A program made the position numbers and the translations under genes. From contig CM049322.1 of NCBI GenBank assembly GCA_026874595.1, positions 24,215,400-24,279,399 on the forward strand: 64,000 nucleotides of DNA, read 5' to 3'. This DNA is from Sipunculus nudus. Lineage: Eukaryota; Annelida; Sipuncula; Golfingiida; Sipunculidae. Shown here in pieces: positions 593 through 55,900 of this stretch (position 1 is its first letter; each line of letters starts with the position of its first letter). The notes beneath the pieces are model-generated. The model was not told where the DNA came from. It worked only from the letters and a program-made list of their open reading frames with translations, and made no database searches.

Positions 593-965
593 CAGCCATG
601 CCCCTCTGTTAAATGTCAGCCAAATGTTGACCACACACTTAATAAGACCAGCCATGCCCCTATGTTAAATGTCAGCCAGATGTTGACCACATACCTAATA
701 TGACCAGCCATGCACCTCTGTTAAATGCCAGCCAAATGTTGACCACATACCTAATATAACCAGCCATGCCCCTCTGTTAAATGCCAGTCAGATGTTGACC
801 ACAGGCCTAATATGACCAGCCATGCCCCTCTGTTAAATGCCAGCCAGATGTTGACCACTTACCTAATATGACCAGCCATGCACCTCTGTTAAATGCCAAC
901 CGAATGTTGACCACGTACCTAATATGACCAGCCATGCCCCTCTATTAAATGCCATCCAGATGTTG

Positions 966-975
966 ACCAAAGGGC
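966..975 (+). repeat. 57-bp marker monomer (ACCAAAGGGC type)
   Basis: In this monomer the usual ACCACAGGCC is replaced by ACCAAAGGGCC, adding one base. It is always preceded by a monomer with TATTAAATGCCATCC and, one further up, by ACCGAATG. Further copies lie near 8.74, 12.49, 14.23, 15.52, 22.24, 24.36, 25.76, 27.77, 36.34, 37.62, 40.59, 42.33, 43.61, 49.04, 50.33, 52.46, 53.86, 56.93, 60.46 and 63.43 kb. It marks two positions per standard block. Its odd length explains several one-base shifts between otherwise parallel copies. Confidence 0.9.
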
Positions 976-2580
976 CTAATATGACCAGCCATGCCCCTCT
1001 GTTAAATGTCAGCCAGATATTGACCACATACCTAATATGACCAGCCATGCCCCTCTGTTGAATGTCAGCCAGATGTTGACCACTTAAATATTATAACCAG
1101 CCATGCCACTCTGTAAAATGCCAGCCAGATGTTGACCACATGCCTAATATGACCAGCCATGCCCCTCTGTTAAACGTCAGCCAGATGTTGACCATTTACC
1201 TAACATGACCAGCCATGCCCCTCTGTTAAATGTCAGCCAGATGATGACCACAGGCCTAATATGACCAGCCATGCCCCTCAGTTTAATGCCAGCCAGATGT
1301 TGACCACAGGCCTAATATTACCAGCCATGCCCCTCCGTTAAATGCCAGCCAAATGTTGACCACTTACCTAATATGACCAGCCATGCCTCTCTGTTAAATG
1401 CCAGCCAGATGTTGACCAAATACCTAATATGACCAGCCATGCCCCTCTGTTAAATGTCAGCCAGATGTTGACCACAGGCCTAATATGACCATCCATGCCC
1501 CTCTGTTAAATGTCAGCCAGATGTTGACCACTTACCTAATAGGACCAGCCATGCCCCTCTGTTAAATGTCAGCCAGATGTTGACCACATGCATAATATGA
1601 CCAGCCATGCCCCTCTGTTAAATGTCAGCCAGATGTTGACCACAGGCCTAATATGACCAGCCATGCCCCTCTGTTAAATTTTCAGCCAGATGTTGACCAC
1701 ATACCTAATATGACAAGCCATGCCCCTCTGTTAAATGTCAACCAGATTTTGACCACAGGCCTAATATGACCAGCCATGCCCCTCTGTTAAATGTCTGCCA
1801 GATGTTGACCACAGGCCTAATATGACCAGCCATGCCCCTCTGTTAAACGTCAGCCAGATGTTGACCACATACTTAATAAGACCAGCTAAGCCCCTCTGTT
1901 AAATGTCAGCCAGATGTTGACCATATAAATAATATGACCAGCCATCCCCTCTGTTAAATGTCAGCCAGATGTTGACCACAGGCCTAATATGACCAGCCAT
2001 GCCCCTCTGTTAAATGTCAGCCAGATGTTGACCACATACTTAATAAGAACAGCTATGCCCCTCTGTTAAATGTCAGCCAGATGTTGACCACATAACTAAT
2101 ATGACCAGCCATGGCCCTCTGTTAAATGTCAGCCAGGTGTTGAAAATTACCTAATATAACCAGCCATACCCCTCTGTTAAATGCCAGCCAGATGTTGACC
2201 ACAGGCCTAATATGACCAGCCATGCCCCTCTGTTAAATGTCAGCCAGATGTTGACCACATACTTAATAAGACCAGCCATGCCCCTCTGTTAAATGTCAGC
2301 CAGATGTTGACCACATACCTTAAATGATCGGCCATGCCCCTCTGTTAAATGTCAGCCAGATGTTGACCACATACTTAATAAGACCAGCCATGCCCCTCTG
2401 TTAAATGTCAGCCAGATGTTGACCACATACCTAATATGACCAGCCATGCACCTCTGTTAAATGCCAGCCAAATGTTGACCACATACCTTATATAACCAGC
2501 CATGCCCCTCTGTTAAATGCCAGCCAGATGTTGACCACATGCATAATATGACCAGCCATGCCTCTCCGTTAAATGTCAGC

Positions 2581-2588
2581 CATTTATT
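2581..2588 (+). repeat. Rare marker monomer CATTTATT, 12 copies in window
   Basis: One monomer type has CATTTATT in place of CAGATGTT. It occurs at 2581, 4930, 11030, 17131, 27373, 29389, 31738, 39126, 45227, 55470, 58828 and 61962. It is always preceded by a monomer ending in CCTCTCCG, so it tags a fixed position in the higher-order blocks. Spacings are 2349, 6100, 6101, 10242, 2016, 2349, 7388, 6101, 10243, 3358 and 3134 bp. The series 2349 / 6-7 kb / 6101 / 10242 appears twice, which is direct evidence for the duplication of about 28 kb. Confidence 0.93.
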
Positions 2589-2678
2589 GACCACATGCCT
2601 AATATGACCAGCCATGCCCCTCTGTTACATGTCAGCCAGATGTTGACCATATGCCTAATATGACCAGCCATGCCCCTC

Positions 2679-2734
2679 TGTTAAATGTCAGCCAGATGTT
2701 GACCACATACCTAATATGACCAGCCATGCCCCTC
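2679..2734 (+). repeat. Reference consensus monomer (56 bp)
   Basis: This is a clean example of the basic unit, followed by an identical copy at 2735-2790 and a one-base variant at 2791-2846. Numbering from TGTTAAATG as position 1: CAGCCAGATG is 11-20, TTGACC is 21-26, the variable stretch is 28-33, TAATATGACC is 34-43 and CAGCCATGCCCC covers 43-54. The two most frequent alternatives are C instead of T at position 10 (TGCCAGCC) and AGGCCT instead of ATACCT after CAC. The choice of start within the unit is arbitrary because the array is circularly permutable. Confidence 0.95.
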
Positions 2735-3629
2735 TGTTAAATGTCAGCCAGATGTTGACCACATACCTAATATGACCAGCCATGCCCCTCTGTTAAATGT
2801 CAGCCAGATGTTGACCACATACCTAATATGACCAGCCATGCCCATCTGTTAAATGTCAGCCAGATGTTGACCACAGGCCTAATATGACCAGCCATGCCCC
2901 TCTGTTTGATGCCAGCCAGATGTTGACCAGAGACCTAATATTACCAGCCATGCCCCTCTGTTAAATGCCAGCCAAATGTTGACCACTTACCTAATATGAC
3001 CAGCCCTGCCCCTCTGTTAAATGCCAGCCAGATGTTGACCACATACCTAATATGACCAGCCATGCCCCTCTGTTAAATGTCAGCCAGATGTTGACCACAT
3101 ACCTAATATGACCAGCCATGCCCCTCTGTTAAATGTCAGCCAGATGTTGACGTCATACCTAATATGACCAGCCATGCCCCTCAGTTAAATGTCAGCCAGA
3201 TGTTGACCACAGGCCTAATATGACCAGCCATGCCCGTCTGTTAAATGCCAGCCAGATGTTGACCACATACCTAACAGACCAGCCATGCCCCTCTGTTAAA
3301 TGTCAGCCAGATGTTGACCACAGGCCTAATATGACCAGCCATGCCCCTCTGTTAATTGTCAGCCAGATGTTGACCTCATACTTAATAAGACCAGCTATGC
3401 CCCTCTGTTAAATGTCAGCAAGATGTTGACCACATACCTAATATAACCAGCCATGCCCCTCTGTTAAATGTCAGCCAGATGTTGACCACAGGCCTAATAT
3501 GACAAGCCATGCCCCTCTGTCAAATGTCAGCTGGATTTTGACCACATACGTAATATGACCAGCCATGCCCCTCTGTTAAATGTCAGCCAAATGTTGACCA
3601 CATACCTAATATGACCAGCCATGTCCCTC

Positions 3630-3880
3630 TGTTGAATGCCAGCCAGATGTTGACCACATACCTAACAGACCAGCCATGCCCCTCTGTTAAATGTCAGCCA
3701 GATGTTGACCACAGGCCTAATATGACCAGCCATGCCCCTCTGTTAATTGTCAGCCAGATGTTGACCTCATACTTAATAAGACCAGCTATGCCCCTCTGTT
3801 AAATGTCAGCAAGATGTTGACCACATACCTAATATAACCAGCCATGCCCCTCTGTTAAATGTCAGCCAGATGTTGACCAC
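3630..3880 (+). repeat. 391-bp-offset duplication joining the two 2,349-bp copies
   Basis: After GTCCCTCTGTTGAATG the sequence steps back to repeat 3239-3489 (offset 391, seven monomers less one base). It carries the same CATACCTAACAGACC, GTTAATTGTC, GACCTCATACTT and GTCAGCAAG monomers. It then jumps to TTACCTAATAGGACC, the start of the next 2,349-bp copy. The same arrangement lies at offset 26,808 (30438-30688). Two illegitimate but unit-registered joins in 250 bp suggest a local rearrangement hotspot or one complex event. Confidence 0.82.
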
Positions 3881-5985
3881 TTACCTAATAGGACCAGCCA
3901 TGCCCCTCTGTTAAATGTCAGCCAGATGTTGACCACATGCATAATATGACCAGCCATGCCCCTCTGTTAAATGTCAGCCAGATGTTGACCACAGGCCTAA
4001 TATGACCAGCCATGCCCCTCTGTTAAATTTTCAGCCAGATGTTGACCACATACCTAATATGACAAGCCATGCCCCTCTGTTAAATGTCAACCAGATTTTG
4101 ACCACAGGCCTAATATGACCAGCCATGCCCCTCTGTTAAATGTCTGCCAGATGTTGACCACAGGCCTAATATGACCAGCCATGCCCCTCTGTTAAACGTC
4201 AGCCAGATGTTGACCACATACTTAATAAGACCAGCTAAGCCCCTCTGTTAAATGTCAGCCAGATGTTGACCATATAAATAATATGACCAGCCATCCCCTC
4301 TGTTAAATGTCAGCCAGATGTTGACCACAGGCCTAATATGACCAGCCATGCCCCTCTGTTAAATGTCAGCCAGATGTTGACCACATACTTAATAAGAACA
4401 GCTATGCCCCTCTGTTAAATGTCAGCCAGATGTTGACCACATAACTAATATGACCAGCCATGGCCCTCTGTTAAATGTCAGCCAGGTGTTGAAAATTACC
4501 TAATATAACCAGCCATACCCCTCTGTTAAATGCCAGCCAGATGTTGACCACAGGCCTAATATGACCAGCCATGCCCCTCTGTTAAATGTCAGCCAGATGT
4601 TGACCACATACTTAATAAGACCAGCCATGCCCCTCTGTTAAATGTCAGCCAGATGTTGACCACATACCTTAAATGATCGGCCATGCCCCTCTGTTAAATG
4701 TCAGCCAGATGTTGACCACATACTTAATAAGACCAGCCATGCCCCTCTGTTAAATGTCAGCCAGATGTTGACCACATACCTAATATGACCAGCCATGCAC
4801 CTCTGTTAAATGCCAGCCAAATGTTGACCACATACCTTATATAACCAGCCATGCCCCTCTGTTAAATGCCAGCCAGATGTTGACCACATGCATAATATGA
4901 CCAGCCATGCCTCTCCGTTAAATGTCAGCCATTTATTGACCACATGCCTAATATGACCAGCCATGCCCCTCTGTTAAATGTCAGCCAGATGTTGACCATA
5001 TGCCTAATATGACCAGCCATGCCCCTCTGTTAAATGTCAGCCAGATGTTGACCACATACCTAATATGACCAGCCATGCCCCTCTGTTAAATGTCAGCCAG
5101 ATGTTGACCACATACCTAATATGACCAGCCATGCCCCTCTGTTAAATGTCAGCCAGATGTTGACCACATACCTAATATGACCAGCCATGCCCATCTGTTA
5201 AATGTCAGCCAGATGTTGACCACAGGCCTAATATGACCAGCCATGCCCCTCTGTTTGATGCCAGCCAGATGTTGACCAGAGACCTAATATTACCAGCCAT
5301 GCCCCTCTGTTAAATGCCAGCCAAATGTTGACCACTTACCTAATATGACCAGCCCTGCCCCTCTGTTAAATGCCAGCCAGATGTTGACCACATACCTAAT
5401 ATGACCAGCCATGCCCCTCTGTTAAATGTCAGCCAGATGTTGACCACATACCTAATATGACCAGCCATGCCCCTCTGTTAAATGTCAGCCAGATGTTGAC
5501 GTCATACCTAATATGACCAGCCATGCCCCTCAGTTAAATGTCAGCCAGATGTTGACCACAGGCCTAATATGACCAGCCATGCCCGTCTGTTAAATGCCAG
5601 CCAGATGTTGACCACATACCTAACAGACCAGCCATGCCCCTCTGTTAAATGTCAGCCAGATGTTGACCACAGGCCTAATATGACCAGCCATGCCCCTCTG
5701 TTAATTGTCAGCCAGATGTTGACCTCATACTTAATAAGACCAGCTATGCCCCTCTGTTAAATGTCAGCAAGATGTTGACCACATACCTAATATAACCAGC
5801 CATGCCCCTCTGTTAAATGTCAGCCAGATGTTGACCACAGGCCTAATATGACAAGCCATGCCCCTCTGTCAAATGTCAGCTGGATTTTGACCACATACGT
5901 AATATGACCAGCCATGCCCCTCTGTTAAATGTCAGCCAAATGTTGACCACATACCTAATATGACCAGCCATGTCCCTCTGTTGAA
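3842..5985 (+). repeat. 2,349-bp-offset tandem duplication, second copy
   Basis: This is the second copy of 1493-3636. The one difference I noticed is TTAAATG near 4975 where the first copy has TTACATG near 2626, and copy 2 of the superrepeat keeps the same distinction (TTACATG near 29434, TTAAATG near 31783). From 5985 it continues into the GTCAGCAAG / CTTAAATATTATAACC / CTCTGAAAAATG series. That series is also found after the equivalent point at 18.36 kb, so this copy retains the ancestral right flank. Confidence 0.87.
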
Positions 5986-8900
5986 TGTCAGCAAGATGTT
6001 GACAACTTAAATATTATAACCAGCCATGCCCCTCTGAAAAATGCCAGCCAGATGTTGACCACAGGCCTAATATGACCAGCCATGCCCCTCTGTTAAATGC
6101 CAGCCAGATGTTGACCACATACCTAATATGACCAGCCATCCCCCTCTGTTAAATGTCAGCCAGATGTTGACCACAGGCCTTATATGACCAGCCATGCCCC
6201 TCTGTTAAATGTCAGCCTGATGTTGACCACATACTTAATAAGACCAGCTATGCCCCTCTGTTAAATGTCAGCCAGATGTTGACCACATACCTAATATGAC
6301 CAGCCATGCCCCTCTGTTAAATGTCAGCTAGATGTTGACCACAGGCCTAATATGACCAGCCATGCCCCTCTGTTAAATGTCAGCCGGATGTTGACCATAT
6401 ACCTAATATGACCAGCCATGCCCCTCTGTTAAATGTCAGCCAGATGTTGACCACATACCTAATATGACCAGCCATGTCCCTCTGTTGAATGTCAGTCAGA
6501 TGTTGACCACTTAAATATTATAACCAGCCATGCCACTCTGTAAAATGCCAGCCAGATGTTGACCACATACGTAATATGACCAGCCATGCCCCTCTGTTAA
6601 ATGCCAGCCAGATGTTGACCACATACCTAATATGACCAGCCATGCCCCTCTGTTAAATGTCAGCTTGATGTTGACCACAGGCCTAATATGACCAGCCATG
6701 CCCCTCTGTTAAATGTCAGCCAGATGTTGACCACATACCTAATATGACCAGCCATGCCCCTCTGTTAAACGTCAGCCAGATGTTGACCACATACTTAATA
6801 AGACCAGCTAAGCCCCTCTGTTAAATGTCAGTCAGATGTTGACCACAGGCCTAATATGACCAGCCATGCCCCTCTGTTAAATGTCAGCCAGGTGTTCAAA
6901 ATTACCTAATATAACCAGCCATACCCCTCTGTTAAATGCCAGCCAGATGTTGACCACAGGCCTAATATGACCAGCCATGCCCCTCTGTTAAATGTCAGCC
7001 AGATGTTGACCACATACTTAATAAGACCAGCCATGCCCCTCTGTTAAATGTCAGCCAGATGTTGACCACATACCTTAAATGATCAGCCATGCCCCTCTGT
7101 TAAATGTCAGCCAGATGTTGACCACATACTTAATAAGACCAGCCATGCCCCTCTGTTAAATGTCAGCCAGATGTTGACCACATATCTAATATGACCAGCA
7201 ATGCACCTCTGTTAAATGCCAGCCAAATGTTGACCACATACCTAATATAACCAGCCATGCCCCTCTGTTGAATGCCAGCCAGATGTTGACCACATGCATA
7301 ATATGACCAGCCATGCCCCTCTGTTAAATGTCAGCCAGTTGTTGAACACAGGCCTAATATGACCAGCCATGCCCCTCTGCTAAATGTCAGCCAGATGTTG
7401 ACCATATGCCTAATATGACCAGCCATGCCCCTCTGTTAAATGTCAGCCAGATGTTGACCACATACCTAATATGACCAGCCATGCCCCTCTGTTAAATGTC
7501 AGCCAGATGTTGACCACATACCTAATATGACCAGCCATGCCCCCCTGTTAAATGTCAGCCAGATGTTGAGCACATACCTAATATGACCAGCCATGCCCCT
7601 CTGTTAAATGTCAGCCAGATGTTGACCACATACCTAATATGACCAGCCATGCACCTCTGTTAAATGTCAGCCAGATGTTGACCACATACCTAATATGACC
7701 AGCCATGCCCCTCTGTTAAATGTCAGCCAGATGTTGACCACATACCTAATATGACCAGCCATGCTCCTCTGTTAAATGTCAGCCAGATGTTGACCACATA
7801 CCCAATATGACCAGCCATGCCCCTCAGTTAAATGTCAGCCAGATGTTGACCACAGGCCTAATATGACCAGCCATGCCCCTGCGTTAAACGTCAGCCAGAT
7901 GTTGACCACATACTAAATAAGACCAGCTAAGCCCCTCTGTTAAATGTCAGCCAGCTGTTGACCACATAAATAATATGACCAGCCATGCCCCTCTGTTAAA
8001 TGTCAGCCAGATGTTGACCACAGGCCTAATATGACCAGCCATGCCCCTCTGTTAAATGTCAGCCAGATGTTGACCACATACTTAATAAGAACAGCTATGC
8101 CCCTCTGTTAAATGTCAGCCAGATGTTGACCACATACCTAATATGACCAGCCATGCCCCTCTGTTAAATGTCAGCCAGGTGTTGAAAATTACCTAATATA
8201 ACCAGCCATACCCCTCTGTTAAATGCCAGCCAGATGTTGACCACAGGCCTAATATGACCAGCCATGCCCCTCTGTTAAATGTCAGCCAGATATTGACCAC
8301 ATACTTAATAAGACCAGCCATGCCCCTCTGTTAAATGTCAGCCAGATGTTGACCACATACCTTAAATGATCAGCCATGCCCCACTGTTAAATGTCAGTCA
8401 GATGTTGACCACACACATAATAAGACCAGCCATGCCCCTCTGTTAAATGTCAGCCAGATGTTGACCACATACCTAATATGACCAGCCATGCACCTCTGTT
8501 AAATGCCAGCCAAATGTTGACCACATACCTAATATAACCAGCCATGCCCCTCTGTTAAATGCCAGTCAGATGTTGACCACAGGCCTAATATGACCAGCCA
8601 TGCCCCTCTGTTAAATGCCAGCCAGATGTTGACCACTTACCTAATATGACCAACCATGCACCTCTGTTAAATGCCAACCGAATGTTGACCACGTACCTAA
8701 TATGACCAGCCATGCCCCTCTATTAAATGCCATCCAGATGTTGACCAAAGGGCCTAATATGACCAGCCATGCCCCTCTATTAAATGCCAGCCAGATGTTG
8801 ACCACATGCCTAATGTGACCAGCCATGCCCCTCTGTTAAATGTCAGCCAGATGTTGACCACAGGCCTAATATGACCAGCCATGCCCCTCTGTTTAATGCC

Positions 8901-9084
8901 AGCCAGATGTTGACCACAGGCCTAATATTACCAGCCATGCCCCTCTGTTAAATGCCAGCCAAATGTTGACCACTTACCTAATATGACCAGCCCTCCCCCT
9001 CTGTTAAATGCCAGCCAGATGTTGACCACATACCTAATATGACCAGCCATGTCCCTCTGTTGAATGTCAGCCAGATGTTGACCA

Positions 9085-12000
9085 CTTAAATATTATAACC
9101 AGCCATGCCACTCTGTAAAATGCCAGCCAGATGTTGACCACATACGTAATATGACCAGCCATGCCCCTCTGTTAAATGCCAGCCAGATGTTGACCACATA
9201 CCTAATATGACCAGCCATGCCCCTCTGTTAAATGTCAGCTTGATGTTGACCACAGGCCTAATATGACCAGCCATGCCCCTCTGTTAAATGTCAGCCGGAT
9301 GTTGACCACATACCTAATATGACCAGCCATGCCCCTCTATTAAACGTCAGCCAGATTTTCACCACATACTTAATAAGACCAGCTAAGCCCCTCTGTTAAA
9401 TGTCAGCCAGATGTTGACCACAGGCCTAATATGACCAGCCATGCCCCTCTGTTAAATGTCAGCCAGGTGTAGAAAATTACCTAATATAACCAGCCATACC
9501 CCTCTGTTAAATGCCAGCCAGATGTTGACCACAGGCCTAATATGACCAGCCATGCCCCTCTGTTAAATGTCAGCCAGATGTTGACCACATACTTAATAAG
9601 ACCAGCCATGCCCCTCTGTTAAATGTCAGCCAGATGTTGACCACATACCTTAAATGATCAGCCATGCCCCTCTGTTAAATGTCAGCCAGATGTGGACCAC
9701 ATGCCTAATATGACCAGCCATGCCCCTCTGTTAAACGTCAGCCAGATGTTGACCACTTACCTAACATGACCAGCCATGCCCCTCTGTTAAATGTCAGCCA
9801 GATGATGACCACAGGCCTAATATGACCAGCCATGCCCCTCAGTTTAATGCCAGCCAGATGTTGACCACAGGCCTAATATTACCAGCCATGCCCCTCCGTT
9901 AAATGCCAGCCAAATGTTGACCACTTACCTAATATGACCAGCCATGCCTCTCTGTTAAATGCCAACCAGATGTTGACCAAATACCTAATATGACCAGCCA
10001 TGCCCCTCTGTTAAATGTCAGCCAGATGTTGACCACAGGCCTAATATGACCATCCATGCCCCTCTGTTAAATGTCAGCCAGATGTTGACCACTTACCTAA
10101 TAGGACCAGCCATGCCCCTCTGTTAAATGTCAGCCAGATGTTGACCACATGCATAATATGACCAGCCATGCCCCTCTGTTAAATGTCAGCCAGATGTTGA
10201 CCACAGGCCTAATATGACCAGCCATGCCCCTCTGTTAAATGTCAGCCAGATGTTGACCACATACCTAATATGACAAGCCATGCCCCTCTGTTAAATGTCA
10301 ACCAGATTTTGACCACAGGCCTAATATGACCAGCCATGCCCCTCTGTTAAATGTCTGCCAGATGTTGACCACAGGCCTAATATGACCAGCCATGCCCCTC
10401 TGTTAAACGTCAGCCAGATGTTGACCACATACTTAATAAGACCAGCTAAGCCCCTCTGTTAAATGTCAGCCAGATGTTGACCATATAAATAATATGACCA
10501 GCCATGCCCCTCTGTTAAATGTCAGCCAGATGTTGACCACAGGCCTAATATGACCAGCCATGCCCCTCTGTTAAATGTCAGCCAGATGTTGACCACATAC
10601 TTAATAAGAACAGCTATGCCCCTCTGTTAAATGTCAGCCAGATGTTGACCACATAACTAATATGACCAGCCATGGCCCTCTGTTAAATGTCAGCCAGGTG
10701 TTGAAAATTACCTAATATAACCAGCCATACCCCTCTGTTAAATGCCAGCCAGATGTTGACCACAGGCCTAATATGACCAGCCATGCCCCTCTGTTAAATG
10801 TCAGCCAGATGTTGACCACATACTTAATAAGACCAGCCATGCCCCTCTGTTAAATGTCAGCCAGATGTTGACCACATACCTAATATGACCAGCCATGCAC
10901 CTCTGTTAAATGCCAGCCAAATGTTGACCACATACCTAATATAACCAGCCATGCCCCTCTGTTAAATGCCAGCCAGATGTTGACCACATGCATAATATGA
11001 CCAGCCATGCCTCTCCGTTAAATGTCAGCCATTTATTGACCACATGCCTAATATGACCAGCCATGCCCCTCTGTTAAATGTCAGCCAGATGTTGACCATA
11101 TGCCTAATATGACCAGCCATGCCCCTCTGTTAAATGTCAGCCAGATGTTGACCACATACCTAATATTACCAGCCATGCCCCTCTGTTAAATGTCAGCCAG
11201 ATGTTGACCACATACCTAATATGACCAGCCATGCCCCCCTGTTAAATGTCAGCCAGATGTTGACCACATACCTAATATGACCAGCCATGCACCTCTGTTA
11301 AACGCCAGCCAAATGTTGACCACATACCTAATATAACCAGCCATGCCCCTCTGTTATATGCCAGCCAGATGTTGACCACATGCATAATATGACCAGCCAT
11401 GCCCCTCTGTTAAATGTCAGCCAGATGTTGACCACATACCTAATATGACCAGCCATGCCCCTATGTTAAATGTCAGCCAGATGTTGACCACATACCTAAT
11501 ATGACCAGCCATGCTCCTCTGTTAAATGTCAGCCAGATGTTGACCACATACCTAATATGACCAGCCATGCCCCTCTGTTAAATGTCAGCCAGATGTTGAC
11601 CACAGGCCTAATATGACCAGCCATGCCCCTCTGTTAAACGTCAGCCAGATGTTGACCACATACTTAATAAGACCAGCTAAGCCCCTCTGTTAAATGTCAG
11701 CCAGATGTTGACCACATAAATAATATGACCAGCCATGCCCCTCTGTTAAATGTCAGCCAGATGTTGACCACAGGCCTAATATGACCAGCCATGCCCCTCT
11801 GTTAAATGTCAGCCAGATGTTGACCACATACCTAATTAGAACAGCTATGCCCCTCTGTTAAATGTCAGCCAGATGTTGACCACATACCTAATATGACCAG
11901 CCATGCCCCTCTGTTAAATGTCAGCCAGGTGTTGAAAATTACCTAATATAACCAGACATACCCCTCTGTTAAATGCCAGCCAGATGTTGACCACAGGCCT

Positions 12001-20500: not shown

Positions 20501-21284
20501 ACATACCTAATATGACCAGCCATGCCCCTCTGTTAAATGTCAGCCAGGTGTTGAAAAGTACCTAATATAACCAGCCATACCCCTCTGTTAAATGCCAGCC
20601 AGATGTTGACCACAGGCCTAATATGACCAGCCATGCCCCTCTGTTAAATGTCAGCCAGATATTGACCACATACTTAATAAGACCAGCCATGCCCCTCTGT
20701 TAAATGTCAGCCAGATGTTGACCACATACCTTAAATGATCAGCCATGCCCCACTGTTAAATGTCAGTCAGATGTTGACCACACACATAATAAGACCAGCC
20801 ATGCCCCTCTGTTAAATGTCAGCCAGATGTTGACCACATACCTAATATGACCAGCCATGCACCTCTGTTAAATGCCAGCCAAATGTTGACCACATACCTA
20901 ATATAACCAGCCATGCCCCTCTGTTAAATGCCAGTCAGATGTTGACCACAGGCCTAATATGACCAGCCATGCCCCTCTGTTAAATGCCAGCCAGATGTTG
21001 ACCACTTACCTAATATGACCAACCATGCACCTCTGTTAAATGCCAACCGAATGTTGACCACGTACCTAATATGACCAGCCATGCCCCTCTATTAAATGCC
21101 ATCCAGATGTTGACCACAGGCCTAATATTACCAGCCATGCCCCTCTGTTAAATGCCAGCCAAATGTTGACCACTTACCTAATATGACCAGCCCTCCCCCT
21201 CTGTTAAATGCCAGCCAGATGTTGACCACATACCTAATATGACCAGCCATGTCCCTCTGTTGAATGTCAGCCAGATGTTGACCA
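14570..21284 (+). repeat. Higher-order block A2 (6.72 kb, standard length)
   Basis: This block has the same marker order as A1 but without the 2,349-bp duplication: ACCGAATG/ACCAAAGGG near 15.5 kb, CATTTATT at 17131, TGACGTCA at 17866, CTCTGAAAAATG near 18.4 kb, a second block-type start at 18879 and ACCAACCATGCACC near 21.0 kb. Between CATTTATT and TGACGTCA it is 168 bp longer than A1 (three extra monomers near 17.4-17.7 kb, including GATGTTTACCAC). A one-base deletion near 14644 (CAGCATGCC) is shared with the counterpart at 42740. Near 21.11 kb it lacks three monomers present in copy 2. Confidence 0.82.
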
Positions 21285-42600: not shown

Positions 42601-42665
42601 TGTTGACCACATACCTAATATGACCAGCCATGTCCCTCTGTTGAATGTCAGCCAGATGTTGACCA
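36676..42665 (+). repeat. Higher-order block B1' (5.99 kb, full length)
   Basis: This is the counterpart of B1 with the 505 bp restored: after GTGGACCACA (37284) it continues through CACTTAATAAG, ACCGAATG (37557), ACCAAAGGG (37621) and CTTAAATATTATGACC (37739) to CATGCC and AACGTCAGCC. Later markers are CATTTATT at 39126, ACCAGACATACC near 40.05 kb, AGTCATGCCCCTCCG near 40.95 kb and GTTGCCCAC near 41.15 kb. The offset to B1 is 27,591 before the deletion point and 28,096 after it. Confidence 0.8.
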
Positions 42666-45600
42666 CTTAAATATTATAACCAGCCATGCCACTCTGTAAA
42701 ATGCCAGCCAGATGTTGACCACATACGTAATATGACCAGCATGCCCCTCTGTTAAATGCCAGCCAAATGTTGACCACATACCTAATATGACCAGCCATGC
42801 CCCTCTGTTAAATGTCAGCTTGATGTTGACCACAGGCCTAATATGACCAGCCATGCCCCTCTGTTAAATGTCAGCCGGATGTTGACCACATACCTAATAT
42901 GACCAGCCATGCCCCTCTATTAAACGTCAGCCAGATTTTCACCACATACTTAATAAGACCAGCTAAGCCCCTCTGTTAAATGTCAGCCAGATGTTGACCA
43001 CAGGCCTAATATGACCAGCCATGCCCCTCTGTTAAATGTCAGCCAGGTGTAGAAAATTACCTAATATAACCAGCCATACCCCTCTGTTAAATGCCAGCCA
43101 GATGTTGACCACAGGCCTAATATGACCAGCCATGCCCCTCTGTTAAATGTCAGCCAGATGTTGACCACATACTTAATAAGACCAGCCATGCCCCTCTGTT
43201 AAATGTCAGCCAGATGTTGACCACATACCTTAAATGATCAGCCATGCCCCTCTGTTAAATGTCAGCCAAATGTTGACCACACACTTAATAAGACCAGCCA
43301 TGCCCATCTGTTAAATGTCAGCCAGATGTTGACCACATACCTAATATGACCAGCCATGCACCTCTGTTAAATGCCAGCCAAATGTTGACCACATACCTAA
43401 TATAACCAGCCATGCCCCTCTGTTAAATGCCAGTCAGATGTTGACCACAGGCCTAATATGACCAGCCATGCCCCTCTGTTAAATGCCAGCCAGATGTTGA
43501 CCACTTACCTAATATGACCAGCCATGCACCTCTGTTAAATGCCAACCGAATGTTGACCACGTACCTAATATGACCAGCCATGCCCCTCTATTAAATGCCA
43601 TCCAGATGTTGACCAAAGGGCCTAATATGACCAGCCATGCCCCTCTGTTAAATGTCAGCCAGATATTGACCACATACCTAATATGACCAGCCATGCCCCT
43701 CTGTTGAATGTCAGCCAGATGTTGACCACTTAAATATTATGACCAGCCATGCCACTCTGTAAAATGCCAGCCAGATGTTGACCACATGCCTAATATGACC
43801 AGCCATGCCCCTCTGTTAAACGTCAGCCAGATGTTGACCATTTACCTAACATGACCAGCCATGCCCCTCTGTTAAATGTCAGCCAGATGATGACCACAGG
43901 CCTAATATGACCAGCCATGCCCCTCAGTTTAATGCCAGCCAGATGTTGACCACAGGCCTAATATTACCAGCCATGCCCCTCCGTTAAATGCCAGCCAAAT
44001 GTTGACCACTTACCTAATATGACCAGCCATGCCTCTCTGTTAAATGCCGGCCAGATGTTGACCAAATACCTAATATGACCAGCCATGCCCCTCTGTTAAA
44101 TGTCAGCCAGATGTTGACCACAGGCCTAATATGACCATCCATGCCCCTCTGTTAAATGTCAGCCAGATGTTGACCACTTACCTAATAGGACCAGCCATGC
44201 CCCTCTGTTAAATGTCAGCCAGATGTTGACCACATGCATAATATGACCAGCCATGCCCCTCTGTTAAATGTCAGCCAGATGTTGACCACAGGCCTAATAT
44301 GACCAGCCATGCCCCTCTGTTAAATTTTCAGCCAGATGTTGACCACATACCTAATATGACAAGCCATGCCCCTCTGTTAAATGTCAACCAGATTTTGACC
44401 ACAGGCCTAATATGACCAGCCATGCCCCTCTGTTAAATGTCTGCCAGATGTTGACCACAGGCCTAATATGACCAGCTATGCCCCTCTGTTAAACGTCAGC
44501 CAGATGTTGACCACATACTTAATAAGACCAGCTAAGCCCCTCTGTTAAATGTCAGCCAGATGTTGACCATATAAATAATATGACCAGCCATCCCCTGTGT
44601 TAAATGTCAGCCAGATGTTGACCACAGGCCTAATATGACCAGCCATGCCCCTCTGTTAAATGTCAGCCAGATGTTGACCACATACTTAATAAGAACAGCT
44701 ATGCCCCTCTGTTAAATGTCAGCCAGATGTTGACCACATAACTAATATGACCAGCCATTGCCCTCTGTTAAATGTCAGCCAGGTGTTGAAAATTACCTAA
44801 TATAACCAGCCATACCCCTCTGTTAAATGCCAGCCAGATGTTGACCACAGGCCTAATATGACCAGCCATGCCCCTCTGTTAAATGTCAGCCAGATGTTGA
44901 CCACATACTTAATAAGACCAGCCATGCCCCTCTGTTAAATGTCAGCCAGATGTTGACCACATACCTTAAATGATCAGCCATGCCCCTCTGTTAAATGTCA
45001 GCCAGATGTTGACCACATACTTAATAAGACCAGCCATGCCCCTCTGTTAAATGTCAGCCAGATGTTGACCACATACCTAATATGACCAGCCATGCACCTC
45101 TGTTAAATGCCAGCCAAATGTTGACCACATACCTTATATAACCAGCCATGCCCCTCTGTTAAATGCCAGCCAGATGTTGACCACATGCATAATATGACCA
45201 ACCATGCCTCTCCGTTAAATGTCAGCCATTTATTGACCACATGCCTAATATGACCAGCCATGCCCCTCTGTTAAATGTCAGCCAGATGTTGACCATATGC
45301 CTAATATGACCAGCCATGCCCCTCTGTTAAATGTCAGCCAGATGTTGACCACATACCTAATATGACCAGCCATGCCCCTCTGATAAATGTCAGCCAGATG
45401 TTGACCACATACCTAATATGACCAGCCATGCCCCTCTGTTAAATGTCAGCCAGATGTTGACCACAGGCCTAATATGACCAGCCATGCCCCTCTGTTTAAT
45501 GCCAGCCAGATGTTGACCAGAGGCCTAATATTACCAGCCATGCCCCTCTGTTAAATGCCAGCCAAATGTTGACCACTTACCTAATATGACCAGCCATGCC

Positions 45601-48600
45601 CCTCTGTTAAATGCCAGCAAGATGTTGACCACATACCTAATATGACCAGCCATGCCCCTCTGTTAAATGTCAGCCAGATGTTGACCACAGGCCTAATATG
45701 ACCAGCCATGCCCCTCTGTTAATTGCCAGCCAGATGTTTACCACATACCTAATATGACCAGCCATGCCCCTCTGTTAAATGCCAGCCAAATGTTGACCAC
45801 TTACCTAATATGACCAGCCATGCCCCTCTGTTAAATGCCAGCCAGATGTTGACCACATACCTAATATGACCAGCCATGCCCCTCTGTTAAATGTCAGCCA
45901 GATGTTGACCACATACCTAATATGACCAGCCATGCCCCTCTGTTAAATGTCAGCCAGATGTTGACGTCATACCTAATATGACCAGCCATGCCCCTCTGTT
46001 AAATGTCAGCCAGATGTTGACCACAGGCCTAATATGACCAGCCATGCCCGTCTGTTAAATGCCAGCCAGATGTTGACCACATACCTAACAGACCAGCCAT
46101 GCCCCTCTGTTAAATGTCAGCCAGATGTTGACCACAGGCCTAATATGACCAGCCATGCCCCTCTGTTAATTGTCAGCCAGATGTTGACCTCATACTTAAT
46201 AAGACCAGCTATGCCCCTCTGTTAAATGTCAGCAAGATGTTGACCACATACCTAATATAACCAGCCATGCCCCTCTGTTAAATGTCAGCCAGATGTTGAC
46301 CACAGGCCTAATATGACAAGCCATGCCCCTCTGTCAAATGTCAGCTGGATTTTGACCACATACGTAATATGACCAGCCATGCCCCTCTGTTAAATGTCAG
46401 CCAGATGTTGACCACATACCTAATATGACCAGCCATGTCCCTCTGTTGAATGTCAGCAAGATGTTGACAACTTAAATATTATAACCAGCCATGCCCCTCT
46501 GAAAAATGCCAGCCAGATGTTGACCACAGGCCTAATATGACCAGCCATGCCCCTCTGTTAAATGCAAGCCAGATGTTGACCACATACCTAATATGACCAG
46601 CCATCCCCCTCTGTTAAATGTCAGCCAGATGTTGACCACAGGCCTTATATGACCAGCCATGCCCCTCTGTTAAATGTCAGCCTGATGTTGACCACATACT
46701 TAATAAGACCAGCTATGCCCCTCTGTTAAATGTCAGCCAGATGTTGACCACATACCTAATATGACCAGCCATGCCCCTCTGTTAAATGTCAGCTAGATGT
46801 TGACCACAGGCCTAATATGACCAGCCATGCCCCTCTGTTAAATGTCAGCCGGATGTTGACCATATACCTAATATGACCAGCCATGCCCCTCTGTTAAATG
46901 TCAGCCAGATGTTGACCACATACCTAATATGACCAGCCATGTCCCTCTGTTGAATGTCAGTCAGATGTTGACCACTTAAATATTATAACCAGCCATGCCA
47001 CTCTGTAAAATGCCAGCCAGATGTTGACCACATACGTAATATGACCAGCCATGCCCCTCTGTTAAATGCCAGCCAGATGTTGACCACATACCTAATATGA
47101 CCAGCCATGCCCCTCTGTTAAATGTCAGCTTGATGTTGACCACAGGCCTAATATGACCAGCCATGCCCCTCTGTTAAATGTCAGCCAGATGTTGACCACA
47201 TACCTAATATGACCAGCCATGCCCCTCTGTTAAACGTCAGCCAGATGTTGACCACATACTTAATAAGACCAGCTAAGCCCCTCTGTTAAATGTCAGTCAG
47301 ATGTTGACCACAGGCCTAATATGACCAGCCATGCCCCTCTGTTAAATGTCAGCCAGGTGTTCAAAATTACCTAATATAACCAGCCATACCCCTCTGTTAA
47401 ATGCCAGCCAGATGTTGACCACAGGCCTAATATGACCAGCCATGCCCCTCTGTTAAATGTCAGCCAGATGTTGACCACATACTTAATAAGACCAGCCATG
47501 CCCCTCTGTTAAATGTCAGCCAGATGTTGACCACATACCTTAAATGATCAGCCATGCCCCTCTGTTAAATGTCAGCCAGATGTTGACCACATACTTAATA
47601 AGACCAGCCATGCCCCTCTGTTAAATGTCAGCCAGATGTTGACCACATACCTAATATGACCAGCAATGCACCTCTGTTAAATGCCAGCCAAATGTTGACC
47701 ACATACCTAATATAACCAGCCATGCCCCTCTGTTGAATGCCAGCCAGATGTTGACCACATGCATAATATGACCAGCCATGCCCCTCTGTTAAATGTCAGC
47801 CAGTTGTTGAACACAGGCCTAATATGACCAGCCATGCCCCTCTGTTAAATGTCAGCCAGATGTTGACCATATGCCTAATATGACCAGCCATGCCCCTCTG
47901 TTAAATGTCAGCCAGATGTTGACCACATACCTAATATGACCAGCCATGCCCCTCTGTTAAATGTCAGCCAGATGTTGACCACATACCTAATATGACCAGC
48001 CATGCCCCTCTGTTACATGTCAGCCAGATGTTGACCACATACCTAATATGACCAGCCATGCTCCTCTGTTAAATGTCAGCCAGATGTTGACCACATACCT
48101 AATATGACCAGCCATGCCCCTCAGTTAAATGTCAGCCAGATGTTGACCACAGGCCTAATATGACCAGCCATGCCCCTCTGTTAAACGTCAGCCAGATGTT
48201 GACCACATACTAAATAAGACCAGCTAAGCCCCTCTGTTAAATGTCAGCCAGCTGTTGACCACATAAATAATATGACCAGCCATGCCCCTCTGTTAAATGT
48301 CAGCCAGATGTTGACCACAGGCCTAATATGACCAGCCATGCCCCTCTGTTAAATGTCAGCCAGATGTTGACCACATACTTAATAAGAACAGCTATGCCCC
48401 TCTGTTAAATGTCAGCCAGATGTTGACCACATACCTAATATGACCAGGCTTGCCCCTCTGTTAAATGTCAGCCAGGTGTTGAAAAGTACCTAATATAACC
48501 AGCCATACCCCTCTGTTAAATGCCAGCCAGATGTTGACCACAGGCCTAATATGACCAGCCATGCCCCTCTGTTAAATGTCAGCCAGATATTGACCACATA

Positions 48601-49381
48601 CTTAATAAGACCAGCCATGCCCCTCTGTTAAATGTCAGCCAGATGTTGACCACATACCTTAAATGATCAGCCATGCCCCACTGTTAAATGTCAGTCAGAT
48701 GTTGACCACACACATAATAAGACCAGCCATGCCCCTCTGTTAAATGTCAGCCAGATGTTGACCACATACCTAATATGACCAGCCATGCACCTCTGTTAAA
48801 TGCCAGCCAAATGTTGACCACATACCTAATATAACCAGCCATGCCCCTCTGTTAAATGCCAGTCAGATGTTGACCACAGGCCTAATATGACCAGCCATGC
48901 CACTCTGTTAAATGCCAGCCAGATGTTGACCACTTACCTAATATGACCAACCATGCACCTCTGTTAAATGCCAACCGAATGTTGACCACGTACCTAATAT
49001 GACCAGCCATGCCCCTCTATTAAATGCCATCCAGATGTTGACCAAAGGGCCTAATATGACCAGCCATGCCCCTCTATTAAATGCCAGCCAGATGTTGACC
49101 ACATGCCTAATGTGACCAGCCATGCCCCTCTGTTAAATGTCAGCCAGATGTTGACCACAGGCCTAATATGACCAGCCATGCCCCTCTGTTTAATGCCAGC
49201 CAGATGTTGACCACAGGCCTAATATTACCAGCCATGCCCCTCTGTTAAATGCCAGCCAAATGTTGACCACTTACCTAATATGACCAGCCCTCCCCCTCTG
49301 TTAAATGCCAGCCAGATGTTGACCACATACCTAATATGACCAGCCATGTCCCTCTGTTGAATGTCAGCCAGATGTTGACCA
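42666..49381 (+). repeat. Higher-order block A2' (6.72 kb)
   Basis: This is the counterpart of A2 at offset 28,096: the one-base deletion near 42740, CATTTATT at 45227, TGACGTCA at 45962, CTCTGAAAAATG near 46.5 kb and a second start at 46975. Near 48.0 kb it lacks three monomers of A2, including the CCCCCCTG and GTTGAGCAC ones. Near 49.04-49.2 kb it has three monomers missing from A2. Total length is therefore almost unchanged (6,716 against 6,715 bp) although the monomer content differs. Confidence 0.82.
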
Positions 49382-52300
49382 CTTAAATATTATAACCAGC
49401 CATGCCACTCTGTAAAATGCCAGCCAGATGTTGACCACATACGTAATATGACCAGCCATGCCCCTCTGTTAAATGCCAGCCAGATGTTGACCACATACCT
49501 AATATGACCAGCCATGCCCCTCTGTTAAATGTCAGCTTGATGTTGACCACAGGCCTAATATGACCAGCCATGCCCCTCTGTTAAATGTCAGCCGGATGTT
49601 GACCACATACCTAATATGACCAGCCATGCCCCTCTATTAAACGTCAGCCAGATTTTCACCACATACTTAATAAGACCAGCTAAGCCCCTCTGTTAAATGT
49701 CAGCCAGATGTTGACCACAGGCCTAATATGACCAGCCATGCCCCTCTGTTAAATGTCAGCCAGGTGTAGAAAATTACCTAATATAACCAGCCATACCCCT
49801 CTGTTAAATGCCAGCCAGATGTTGACCACAGGCCTAATATGACCAGCCATGCCCCTCTGTTAAATGTCAGCCAGATGTTGACCACATACTTAATAAGACC
49901 AGCCATGCCCCTCTGTTAAATGTCAGCCAGATGTTGACCACATACCTTAAATGATCAGCCATGCCCCTCTGTTAAATGTCAGCCAGATGTTGACCACACA
50001 CTTAATAAGACCAGCCATGCCCCTCTGTTAAATGTCAGCCAGATGTTGACCACATACCTAATATGACCAGCCATGCACCTCTGTTAAATGCCAGCCAAAT
50101 GTTGACCACATACCTAATATAACCAGCCATGCCCCTCTGTTAAATGCCAGTCAGATGTTGACCACAGGCCTAATATGACCAGCCATGCCCCTCTGTTAAA
50201 TGCCAGCCAGATGTTGACCACTTACCTAATATGACCAGCCATGCACCTCTGTTAAATGCCAACCGAATGTTGACCACGTACATAATATGACCAGCCATTC
50301 CCCTCTATTAAATGCCATCCAGATGTTGACCAAAGGGCCTAATATGACCAGCCATGCCCCTCTGTTAAATGTCAGCCAGATATTGACCACATTCCTAATA
50401 TGACCAGCCATGCCCCTCTGTTGAATGTCAGCCAGATGTTGACCACTTAAATATTATGACCAGCCATGCCACTCTGTAAAATGCCAGCCAGATGTTGACC
50501 ACATGCCTAATATGACCAGCCATGCCCCTCTGTTAAACGTCAGCCAGATGTTGACCACTTACCTAACATGACCAGCCATGCCCCTCTGTTAAATGTCAGC
50601 CAGATGATGACCACAGGCCTAATATGACCAGCCATGCCCCTCAGTTTAATGCCAGCCAGATGTTGACCACAGGCCTAATATTACTAGCCATGCCCCTCCG
50701 TTAAATGCCAGCCAAATGTTGACCACTTACCTAATATGACCAGCCATGCCTCTCTGTTAAATGCCAGCCAGATGTTGACCAAATACCTAATATGACCAGC
50801 CATGCCCCTCTGTTAAATGTCAGCCAGATGTTGACCACAGGCCTAATATGACCATCCATGCCCCTCTGTTAAATGTCAGCCAGATGTTGACCACTTACCT
50901 AATAGGACCAGCCATGCCCCTCTGTTAAATGTCAGCCAGATGTTGACCACATGCATTATATGACCAGCCATGCCCCTCTGTTAAATGTCAGCCAGATGTT
51001 GACCACAGGCCTAATATGACCAGCCATGCCCCTCTGTTAAATGTCAGCCAGATGTTGACCACATACCTAATATGACAAGCCATGCCCCTCTGTTAAATGT
51101 CAACCAGATTTTGACCACAGGCCTAATATGACCAGCCATGCCCCTCTGTTAAATGTCTGCCAGATGTTGACCACAGGCCTAATATGACCAGCCATGCCCC
51201 TCTGTTAAACGTCAGCCAGATGTTGACCACATACTTAATAAGACCAGCTAAGCCCCTCTGTTGAATTTCAGCCAGATGTTGACCATATAAATAATATGAC
51301 CAGCCATGCCCCTCTGTTAAAAGTCAGCCAGATGTTGACCACAGGCCTAATATGACCAGCCATGCCCCTCTGTTAAATGTCAGCCAGATGTTGACCACAT
51401 ACTTAATAAGAACAGCTATGCCCCTCTGTTAAATGTCAGCCAGATGTTGACCACATAACTAATATGACCAGCCATGGCCCTCTGTTAAATGTCAGCCAGG
51501 TGTTGAAAATTACCTAATATAACCAGCCATACCCCTCTGTTAAATGCCAGCCAGATGTTGACCACAGGCCTAATATGACCAGCCATGCCCCTCTGTTAAA
51601 TGTCAGCCAGATGTTGACCACATACTTAATAAGACCGGCCATGCCCCTCTGTTAAATGTCAGCCAGATGTTGACCACATACCTTAAATGATCAGCCATGC
51701 CCCTCTGTTAAATGTCAGCCAGATGTTGACCACATACTTAATAAGACCAGCCATGCCCCTCTGTTAAATGTCAGCCAGATGTTGACCACAGGCCTAATAT
51801 GACCAGCCATGCCCCTCTGTTAAATGTCAGCCAGATGTTGACCACATACCTAATATGACCAGCCATGCCCCTCTGTTAAATGTCAGCCAGGTGTTGAAAA
51901 GTACCTAATATAACCAGCCATACCCCTCTGTTAAATGCCAGCCAGATGTTGACCACAGGCCTAATATGACCAGCCATGCCCCTCTGTTAAATGTCAGCCA
52001 GATATTGACCACATACTTAATAAGACCAGCCATGCCCCTCTGTTAAATGTCAGCCAGATGTTGACCACATACCTTAAATGATCAGCCATGCCCCACTGTT
52101 AAATGTCAGTCAGATGTTGACCACACACATAATAAGACCAGCCATGCCCCTCTGTTAAATGTCAGCCAGATGTTGACCACATACCTAATATGACCAGCCA
52201 TGCACCTCTGTTAAATGCCAGCCAAATGTTGACCACATACCTAATATAACCAGCCATGCCCCTCTGTTAAATGCCAGTCAGATGTTGACCACAGGCCTAA

Positions 52301-52907
52301 TATGACCAGCCATGCCCCTCTGTTAAATGCCAGCCAGATGTTGACCACTTACCTAATATGACCAACCATGCACCTCTGTTAAATGCCAACCGAATGTTGA
52401 CCACGTACCTAATATGACCAGCCATGCCCCTCTATTAAATGCCATCCAGATGTTGACCAAAGGGCCTAATATGACCAGCCATGCCCCTCTATTAAATGCC
52501 AGCCAGATGTTGACCACATGCCTAATGTGACCAGCCATGCCCCTCTGTTAAATGTCAGCCAGATGTTGACCACAGGCCTAATATGACCAGCCATGCCCCT
52601 CTGTTTAATGCCAGCCAGATGTTGACCACAGGCCTAATATTACCAGCCATGCCCCTCTGTTAAATGCCAGCCAAATGTTGACCACTTACCTAATATGACC
52701 AGCCCTCCCCCTCTGTTAAATGCCAGCCAGATGTTGACCACATACGTAATATGACCAGCCATGTCCCTCTGTTAAATGTCAACCAGATTTTGACCACAGG
52801 CCTAATATGACCAGCCATGGCCCTCTGTTAAATGTCAGCCAGGTGTTGAAAATTACCTAATATAACCAGCCATACCCCTCTGTTAAATGCCAGCCAGATG
52901 TTGACCA
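49382..52907 (+). repeat. Higher-order block C1' (3.53 kb)
   Basis: This is the counterpart of C1 at offset 28,097 and the same length, 3,526 bp. It has one extra CATATAAATAATATG monomer before GTTAAAAGTC (51319) and lacks one AATAAGAACAGC monomer near 51.83 kb. The two changes cancel. Copy-specific substitutions are TACATAATATG (50279), GCATTATATG (50953) and GAATTTCAG (51264). Confidence 0.8.
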
Positions 52908-55900
52908 CTTAAATATTATAACCAGCCATGCCACTCTGTAAAATGCCAGCCAGATGTTGACCACATACGTAATATGACCAGCCATGCCCCTCTGTTAAAT
53001 GCCAGCCAGATGTTGACCACATACCTAATATGACCAGCCATGCCCCTCTGTTAAATGTCAGCTTGATGTTGACCACAGGCCTAATATGACCAGCCATGCC
53101 CTTCTGTTAAATGTCAGCCGGATGTTGACCACATACCTAATATGACCAGCCATGCCCCTCTATTAAACGTCAGCCAGATTTTCACCACATACTTAATAAG
53201 ACCAGCTAAGCCCCTCTGTTAAATGTCAGCCAGATGTTGACCACAGGCCTAATATGACCAGCCATGCCCCTCTGTTAAATGTCAGCCAGGTGTAGAAAAT
53301 TACCTAATATAACCAGCCATACCCCTCTGTTAAATGCCAGCCAGATGTTGACCACAGGCCTAATATGACCAGCCATGCCCCTCTGTTAAATGTCAGCCAG
53401 ATGTTGACCACATACTTAATAAGACCAGCCATGCCCCTCTGTTAAATGTCAGCCAGATGTTGACCACATACCTTAAATGATCAGCCATGCCCCTCTGTTA
53501 AATGTCAGCCAGATGTTGACCACACACTTAATAAGACCAGCCATGCCCCTCTGTTAAATGTCAGCCAGATGTTGACCACATACCTAATATGACCAGCCAT
53601 GCACCTCTGTTAAATGCCAGCCAAATGTTGACCACATACCTAATATAACCAGCCATGCCCCTCTGTTAAATGCCAGTCAGATGTTGACCACAGGCCTAAT
53701 ATGACCAGCCATGCCCCTCTGTTAAATGCCAGCCAGATGTTGACCACTTACCTAATATGACCAGCCATGCACCTCTGTTAAATGCCAACCGAATGTTGAC
53801 CACGTACCTAATATGACCAGCCATTCCAGTCTATTAAATGCCATCCAGATGTTGACCAAAGGGCCTAATATGACCAGCCATGCCCCTCTGTTAAATGTCA
53901 GCCAGATATTGACCACATTCCTAATATGACCAGCCATGCCCCTCTGTTGAATGTCAGCCAGATGTTGACCACTTAAATATTATGACCAGCCATGCCACTC
54001 TGTAAAATGCCAGCCAGATGTTGACCACATGCCTAATATGACCAGCCATGCCCCTCTGTTAAACGTCAGCCAGATGTTGACCACTTACCTAACATGACCA
54101 GCCATGCCCCTCTGTTAAATGTCAGCCAGATGATGACCACAGGCCTAATATGACCAGCCATGCCCCTCAGTTTAATGCCAGCCAGATGTTGACCACAGGC
54201 CTAATATAACTAGCCATGCCCCTCCGTTAAATGCCAGCCAAATGTTGACCACTTACCTAATATGACCAGCCATGCCTCTCTGTTAAATGCCAGCCAGATG
54301 TTGACCAAATACCTAATATGACCAGCCATGCCCCTCTGTTAAATGTCAGCCAGATGTTGACCACAGGCCTAATATGACCATCCATGCCCCTCTGTTAAAT
54401 GTCAGCCAGATGTTGACCACTTACCTAATAGGACCAGCCATGCCCCTCTGTTAAATGTCAGCCAGATGTTGACCACATGCATAATATGACCAGCCATGCC
54501 CCTCTGTTAAATGTCAGCCAGATGTTGACCACAGGCCTAATATGACCAGCCATGCCCCTCTGTTAAATGTCAGCCAGATGTTGACCACATACCTAATATG
54601 ACAAGCCATGCCCCTCTGTTAAATGTCAACCAGATTTTGACCACAGGCCTAATATGACCAGCCATGCCCCTCTGTTAAATGTCTGCCAGATGTTGACCAC
54701 AGGCCTAATATGACCAGCCATGCCCCTCTGTTAAACGTCAGCCAGATGTTGACCACATACTTAATAAGACCAGCTAAGCCCCTCTGTTGAATGTCAGCCA
54801 GATGTTGACCATATAAATAATATGACCAGCCATGCCCCTCTGTTAAATGTCAGCCAGATGTTGACCACAGGCCTAATATGACCAGCCATGCCCCTCTGTT
54901 AAATGTCAGCCAGATGTTGACCACATACTTAATAAGAACAGCTATGCCCCTCTGTTAAATGTCAGCCAGATGTTGACCACATAACTAATATGACCAGCCA
55001 TGGCCCTCTGTTAAATGTCAGCCAGGTGTTGAAAATTACCTAATATAACCAGCCATACCCCTCTGTTAAATGCCAGCCAGATGTTGACCACAGGCCTAAT
55101 ATGACCAGCCATGCCCCTCTGTTAAATGTCAGCCAGATGTTGACCACATACTTAATAAGACCAGCCATGCCCCTCTGTTAAATGTCAGCCAGATGTTGAC
55201 CACATACCTTAAATGATCAGCCATGCCCCTCTGTTAAATGTCAGCCAGATGTTGACCACATACTTAATAAGACCAGCCATGCCCCTCTGTTAAATGTCAG
55301 CCAGATGTTGACCACATACCTAATATGACCAGCCATGCACCTCTGTTAAATGCCAGCCAAATGTTGACCACATACCTAATATAACCAGCCATGCCCCTCT
55401 GTTAAATGCCAGCCAAATGTTGACCACATGCATAATATGACCAGCCATGCCTCTCCGTTAAATGTCAGCCATTTATTGACCACATGCCTAATATGACCAG
55501 CCATGCCCCTCTGTTAAATGTCAGCCAGATGTTGACCATATGCCTAATATGACCAGCCATGCCCCTCTGTTAAATGTCAGCCAGATGTTGACCACATACC
55601 TAATATGACCAGCCATGCCCCTCTGTTAAATGTCAGCCAGATGTTGACCACATACCTAATATGACCAGCCATGCCCCCCTGTTATATGTCAGCCAGATGT
55701 TGACCACATACCTAATATGACCAGCCATGCACCTCTGTTAAACGCCAGCCAAATGTTGACCACATACCTAATATAACCAGCCATGCCCCTCTGTTATATG
55801 CCAGCCAGATGTTGACCACATGCATAATATGACCAGCCATGCCCCTCTGTTAAATGTCAGCCAGATGTTGACCACATACCTAATATGACCAGCCATGCCC

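Follow-up and report, generated by a model that had tools for sequence, protein, structure and literature searches.

Introduction

In human alpha satellite, arrays of monomers contain multi-monomer blocks that are copied as units. The Drosophila genes kl-3 and kl-5 are Y-linked, and we know of no report that the satellites in their introns derive from a splice site of the gene itself. The interferon-induced human 6-16 array is a short minisatellite of small units lying at an exon-intron boundary. A human interferon-induced minisatellite supplies multiple splice donors (cited in PMC3618361), the introns of kl-3 and kl-5 are gigantic, megabase-sized and satellite-containing (PMC6508621), tandem genomic duplication has been described as an intron source in a potato gene (PMC4974935), and satellites have been reported to arise from transposons (PMC12628747). 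Here, we analyze a stretch of 64,000 nucleotides from Sipunculus nudus (GenBank assembly GCA_026874595.1, contig CM049322.1, hereafter C17, positions 24215400-24279399, forward strand; referred to as the window), which lies entirely within an array of 56-bp satellite monomers and contains a tandem doubling of 27-28 kb. The array appears to fill an intron of an immunoglobulin (Ig)-domain gene.

Minisatellites of the 6-16 type are the closest known case. In both systems the tandem units carry 5' splice donors and, judging by sequence homology, the repeat described here likewise sits at an exon-intron boundary with the donor inside its unit; however, here the units of 56 bp number approximately 2,000, extend over 112 kb and are arranged in nested block duplications of up to 28 kb. 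As in kl-3 and kl-5, satellite DNA makes the intron huge, but the introns of those genes reach megabases, whereas the putative intron of the present gene measures 118 kb and its satellite seems to come from the gene's own splice site. Intron gain by tandem duplication shares with this locus a within-gene tandem duplication touching splice sites, although a new intron is formed there, while an existing donor was presumably amplified within an existing intron here. Multi-monomer blocks are duplicated as units in alpha satellite as well; unlike alpha satellite, the Sipunculus array is a single locus, probably placed inside a gene intron, and possesses no dominant many-copy unit. Among the titles and opening abstract lines of the open-access literature searched, no satellite of this size derived from an exon-intron boundary was found, and, as far as such searches go, the novelty lies in the scale of the array, its block structure and its clear birthplace.

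Our collective results make it highly probable that the array was seeded at an exon boundary of its present host gene, that it grew by the duplication of blocks, and that the 28-kb doubling was one recent event in this growth.

Results

The region examined comprised the window and 50 kb on either side (164 kb), throughout which there is no N base; genome-wide searches covered the whole assembly (1.43 Gb, 153 contigs). Positions below are those of the window unless preceded by C17, and negative values lie upstream of it. Tandem Repeats Finder (TRF) reported one array of a 56-bp unit over the entire window (1143.5 copies, 89% matches). The whole array extends approximately from C17:24203213 to C17:24315185 (window -12186 to 99786), that is, over 112 kb, with non-array sequence flanking both ends, and was decomposed into 2,000 monomers of 242 kinds. 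When the genome was searched with up to three mismatches, a 32-mer taken from one half of the monomer gave 1,897 forward and 0 reverse matches, and a 29-mer from the other half gave 1,884 matches on one strand and 0 on the opposite one; every one of them (1,897/1,897 and 1,884/1,884) fell inside the array. For these two patterns, the array is a single locus in a single orientation.

Within the array, two blocks of 27-28 kb lie directly next to each other (Table 1). The sequence-only reading had proposed that positions 593-27441 recur in tandem at 27401-55538 with an offset rising from 26,808 to 28,097 bp, with few substitutions, several whole-monomer indels and a series of marker spacings that occurs twice. 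Comparison of the two copies bore out each of these points and refined the edges. The exact repeats shared by the copies reach 7,677 bp (12236/40332, offset 28096) and 5,789 bp (663/27471, offset 26808), followed by 2,540 bp (9695/37791, 28096), 2,321 bp (7381/34972, 27591) and 1,360 bp (25733/53830, 28097), so that the offset climbs from 26808 through 27591 to 28096/28097. In the monomer-level alignment, 457 of the 475 pairs are identical and the other 18 hold 24 edits (approximately 0.09%). Six indels of whole monomers separate the copies: copy 2 has 14 more at 33245, nine more at 37274 and three more at 49028, copy 1 has three more at 19813, and each has one further extra monomer. The match at an offset of 479 monomers opens at 673/27481 (the preceding pair, 617/27425, differs by 2 edits), and the match at an offset of 502 monomers closes at 27369/55466; hence, the copies are placed approximately as given in Table 1. 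The marker CATTTATT, which reads AATAAATG on the sense strand of the host gene, recurs at spacings of 2349, 6100, 6101 and 10242 bp and then, after 2016 bp, at 2349, 7388, 6101 and 10243 bp.

Table 1. Coordinates of the features discussed, in positions of the 64,000-bp window
Feature	Position	Strand	Basis
56-bp monomer array, portion in the window	1..64000	-	TRF and flank comparison; inside one putative intron of an Ig-domain gene
Copy 1 of the duplicated block	617..27424 (26,808 bp)		Exact repeats and monomer alignment
Nested 42-monomer (2,349-bp) pair	1514..5932		Further copies at 28322-32740 and in the upstream flank
More diverged right part of copy 1 versus copy 2	19900..27424		14/17 differing monomers
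Seam between the copies	27369..27470		Exact repeats at the probed positions 27250-27441 no longer than 343 bp
Copy 2 of the duplicated block	27425..55521 (28,097 bp)		Exact repeats and monomer alignment
14 extra monomers in copy 2	33245..34027		Run of 14 monomers duplicated exactly at a 17-monomer offset; three interval monomers lost
Nine monomers in copy 2, missing from copy 1	37274..37778		7/9 identical in a block elsewhere in the array
Start of the array's right part	55242..64000		Recurrence of a 40-monomer block

The 14 extra monomers represent a local tandem duplication confined to copy 2, whereas the nine-monomer difference is probably a deletion in copy 1, since seven of the nine monomers recur identically in another block of the array. 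Moreover, the part to the right of 19.9 kb, which makes up 28% of the length, holds 14 of the 17 differing monomers (binomial P 5e-6, with the cut picked post hoc and the edge monomer at 617 excluded). Given this uneven distribution, gene conversion or a further exchange probably altered the pair after the doubling. A third copy of the unit's left 5.5-6 kb starts upstream of the window, where -6827 to -895 matches 953-6884 (106 monomers, 4 edits).

A low level of difference (24 edits) combined with whole-monomer indels would also resemble two satellite alleles, and, as all pattern matches fall within one array, the other haplotype has no separate contig. Thus, one might suppose that the assembly fused both haplotypes of a single locus, copy 2 being an allele of copy 1, as the sequence-only reading had offered as its alternative. 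The properties of the seam render this improbable. At the positions probed between 27250 and 27441, exact repeats spanning the seam reach no more than 343 bp; the 5,789-bp repeat starts only at 27471 and is underway at 27480. The best ungapped matches elsewhere for the sequence around 27425 differ by 50 edits over 20 monomers (1.1 kb) and by 106 edits over 40 monomers, which places the seam among the least matched sites of the array, with equal uniqueness at 2 to 3% of array positions. Hence, a false overlap of accurate reads at 27.4 kb would be difficult to obtain. Additionally, the absence of N bases from the 164 kb speaks against a join, and other duplications in the array show equally low divergence (0 edits in 68 monomers; 3 in 118). 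The adjacency of the copies and the uniqueness of their seam within the assembled array make a real tandem duplication well supported.

The doubling is accompanied by many smaller block duplications. We regarded a seam as tandem when its left side matched one unit ahead and its right side one unit back; of at least 15 seam positions, six read in this way, namely 27481 (479/502 monomers), 74105 (117), 89609 (72), 81774 (22) and the pair 33189/34028 (17). The seam at -6883, one of those which do not, belongs to a pair of 137-139 monomers, which starts in the upstream flank and takes in the beginning of copy 1. The start of copy 2 differs from copy 1 by 0 edits in 103 monomers and from the upstream copy by 3 in 98; the upstream doubling is therefore probably older than the 28-kb one. 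Repeated blocks occur at offsets of 17, 22, 42, 60, 63, 72, 116-118, 137-145, 195, 217 and 479-502 monomers, among others. To the right of the doubling, a block of 40 monomers recurs with 0-6 edits at 55578, 62070, 65428, 68283, 74833, 82949 and 93863 (the last five outside the window), the seven copies following one another at intervals of 2.9 to 10.9 kb; a further two copies carry 10-11 edits.

The sequence-only reading had regarded the 27-28 kb unit as a third level of organization, above the monomer and a 6-kb block. In its strongest form, this view would make the unit a true and stable higher-order repeat (HOR). In agreement with such an arrangement, the strongest monomer-level autocorrelation of the array falls at an offset of 502 monomers (0.193; offsets 1-699), and monomers inside the unit differ more than the units do: monomers deviate from the consensus at 2.35-3.58 sites (means of 100-monomer bins), compared with 24 edits in 475 monomers between the copies. 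However, in place of many near-identical units arranged head to tail, only two copies of the unit exist within 112 kb (the nearest approach to such a series is the 40-monomer block), the unit bears private indels and mosaic divergence, and block offsets are scattered over many sizes, from 17 to 479-502 monomers. We thus find a stable HOR quite improbable. The tandem duplication itself remains well supported, but, because there are only two copies, their divergence is mosaic and the other tandem units are of different sizes, the 28-kb doubling is one event in a series of nested block duplications rather than a level of organization.

At the right end of the array, the last monomer passes unbroken, on the minus strand, into an open frame that encodes an Ig V-set domain. 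This exon has its end at C17:24315161, and a second Ig-like exon begins at C17:24197363, both outside the window. Protein searches with two V exons revealed four V exons in total, including that of the satellite gene, the other three being located away from the satellite. Searching with the second Ig-like exon likewise returned four exons of the second type, one behind each V exon and on the same strand, at distances of about 0.5, 0.5, 1.9 and 118 kb. All four possess an AG acceptor, read by eye as phase 1. A Pfam scan assigned no family to the second exon of the satellite gene, which is 52, 36 and 48% identical to the other three (E 7e-6 and 3e-4 for the last two). On the basis of this pairing and of the identity to the three paralogous second exons, we infer an intron at C17:24197364-24315160 (117,797 bp), of which the satellite would make up 111,948 bp, or 95%. 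Given this exon pair, the satellite constitutes most of a gigantic intron, and the gene would be spliced across the whole array, presumably from the donor adjacent to the exon.

The monomer itself is homologous to the V-set exon at its 3' end (..NRGAWLVIL) and to the splice donor there, TTAG/GTATGT (the slash marks the exon-intron junction): it would be a copy of 28 coding bases together with the donor and the bases that follow it. The motif GAWL[VI] is found in all four V exons, and two codons later three of the four have G/GT in equal phase, the donors being GTATGT in the satellite gene and GTAAGT and GTAAAA in two paralogs. The match to the V-set profile reaches position 107 of 109 (36.6 bits) when the satellite-encoded residues are included and position 92 (35.2 bits) when they are left out; since this gain is small, the argument for the exon end is carried by the paralogs and not by the profile. 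The occurrence of GAWL[VI] in paralogs outside the satellite indicates that the exon end predates the satellite, and these homologies suggest that the satellite was born from an exon-intron boundary of its host gene.

The reverse course, in which the satellite came from elsewhere, e.g., from a transposable element, and the V exon gained its end from the satellite, could find support in a dispersed repeat near the left array edge, at a distance of about 170 bp. We nevertheless consider it very improbable, as three paralogous V exons elsewhere share the GAWL[VI] end, which is thus older than the satellite, and as the genome holds no other copy of the monomer at up to three mismatches in 32 or 29 bases. 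Despite its 112-kb size and interior chromosome position (24.2 of 61.1 Mb), a centromeric or other chromosome-structural satellite is hardly credible, for the two monomer patterns match only here, within the putative gene intron.

As for the edges of the array, the dispersed repeat occupies C17:24202801-24203042. The 118 bp abutting the left edge (C17:24203090-24203207) are 72% identical to a stretch approximately 0.9 kb past the right edge. The idea that the array is flush at both ends with its exon-plus-donor half was dropped, because the left edge runs on for a few bases which, by eye, look like a decayed monomer.

A GT is retained at the donor place in 1,197 of the 2,000 monomers; 543 have TTAG/GTATGT and 126 have TTAG/GTAAGT. 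Counting as donor-like any site that agrees with at least seven of the nine positions of the consensus MAG/GTRAGT, we obtained 854 sites on the sense strand of the array (7.6 per kb) compared with 37 on the antisense strand (0.33 per kb), while the flanks have 1.8 per kb on either strand. Donors agreeing at all nine positions are absent from the array, and the flanks contain one and two. Reading on past the V exon, a stop is met after GMWSTSG within the first monomer, and the use of any inner donor would therefore truncate the protein.

The polyadenylation signals AATAAA and ATTAAA number 18 and 37, respectively, in the 112 kb of sense-strand array versus 87 and 54 in 51 kb of flank, although the repetition of one monomer would give such a bias without selection. 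AATAAA is carried by the marker CATTTATT on the sense strand of the host gene, at window position 2581 and at 11 more window sites, and at 18 sites array-wide.

Among the 56 possible windows of seven sites in the monomer, the one covering the donor (-1 to +6) is the most variable, with a mean heterozygosity of 0.252 versus 0.071 elsewhere (Mann-Whitney P 0.0017). When the 239 distinct aligned monomers are linked by a minimum spanning tree, changes at the donor are not raised (5.9 versus 5.4 per site). A comparison of common and rare alleles gave a Fisher P of 0.13, and a few variants that arose early and were multiplied by duplication would leave the same pattern as selection against decoy donors.

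Discussion

We propose that a 56-bp segment over the 3' end of the V-set exon and the 5' donor behind it was tandemly duplicated inside the gene. Subsequently, the array would have grown as blocks of 17 to about 500 monomers were time and again duplicated in tandem or deleted, through unequal exchange or an equivalent break-and-copy process, as the tandem seams suggest. The outcome would be the present single-locus array of approximately 2,000 monomers filling a 118-kb intron. The 27-28 kb doubling may be seen as a recent large event in this series, after which monomer indels and, probably, gene conversion or a further exchange modified the copies. Both the exchange mechanism and the order of events are inferred.

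Several of our observations weigh against this proposal. The divergence between the two copies is uneven, which a single event left untouched would not yield. Nine of the 15 seam positions, among those listed, lack a simple tandem reading. Among the four matches to exons of the second type, two are weak, at the E values given above, and one V exon of the four (C17:56904351) has G/CT at the donor place. Finally, the left array edge shows no recognizable continuation of the ancestral intron, with the dispersed repeat ending approximately 170 bp away; given the state of this edge, the first duplication is not reconstructable.

The locus offers a satellite that is assembled from edge to edge and has a traceable birthplace, the seed being, by homology, the exon end and donor of a gene that would still host it. 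As several growth steps are readable as seams, satellite birth and growth by blocks may be studied at one locus. It also poses a question of donor choice, in which one donor would have to be used ahead of approximately 1,200 GT-bearing monomers within 112 kb. Possibly, the approximately 850 donor-like sites of each pre-mRNA recruit the U1 small nuclear ribonucleoprotein and thereby tune the expression of the V-set exon, either as decoy donors or by shielding the giant intron from premature polyadenylation, with array length serving as a dosage dial. We regard this as an unlikely speculation; if it were true, jumps in array length such as the 28-kb doubling would alter the expression dosage of the host gene.

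In the paralogous gene whose V-set exon lies at C17:56904351-56904641, the conserved tryptophan of the domain has been lost, besides the G/CT, and the exon may be decaying. Upstream of the array, at C17:24185438-24190308, long frames resemble a Gypsy-type retrotransposon: Pfam shows a SCAN-like frame as well as H2C2 and rve integrase domains, and a third frame reads like a reverse transcriptase. Unbroken ferritin-family frames occur on 13 small contigs (C61, C62, C69, C72, C74, C77, C79, C83, C89, C90, C111, C124 and C127), several of them with identical scores, which suggests that bacterial genomes, of symbionts or associated organisms, are present within the assembly.

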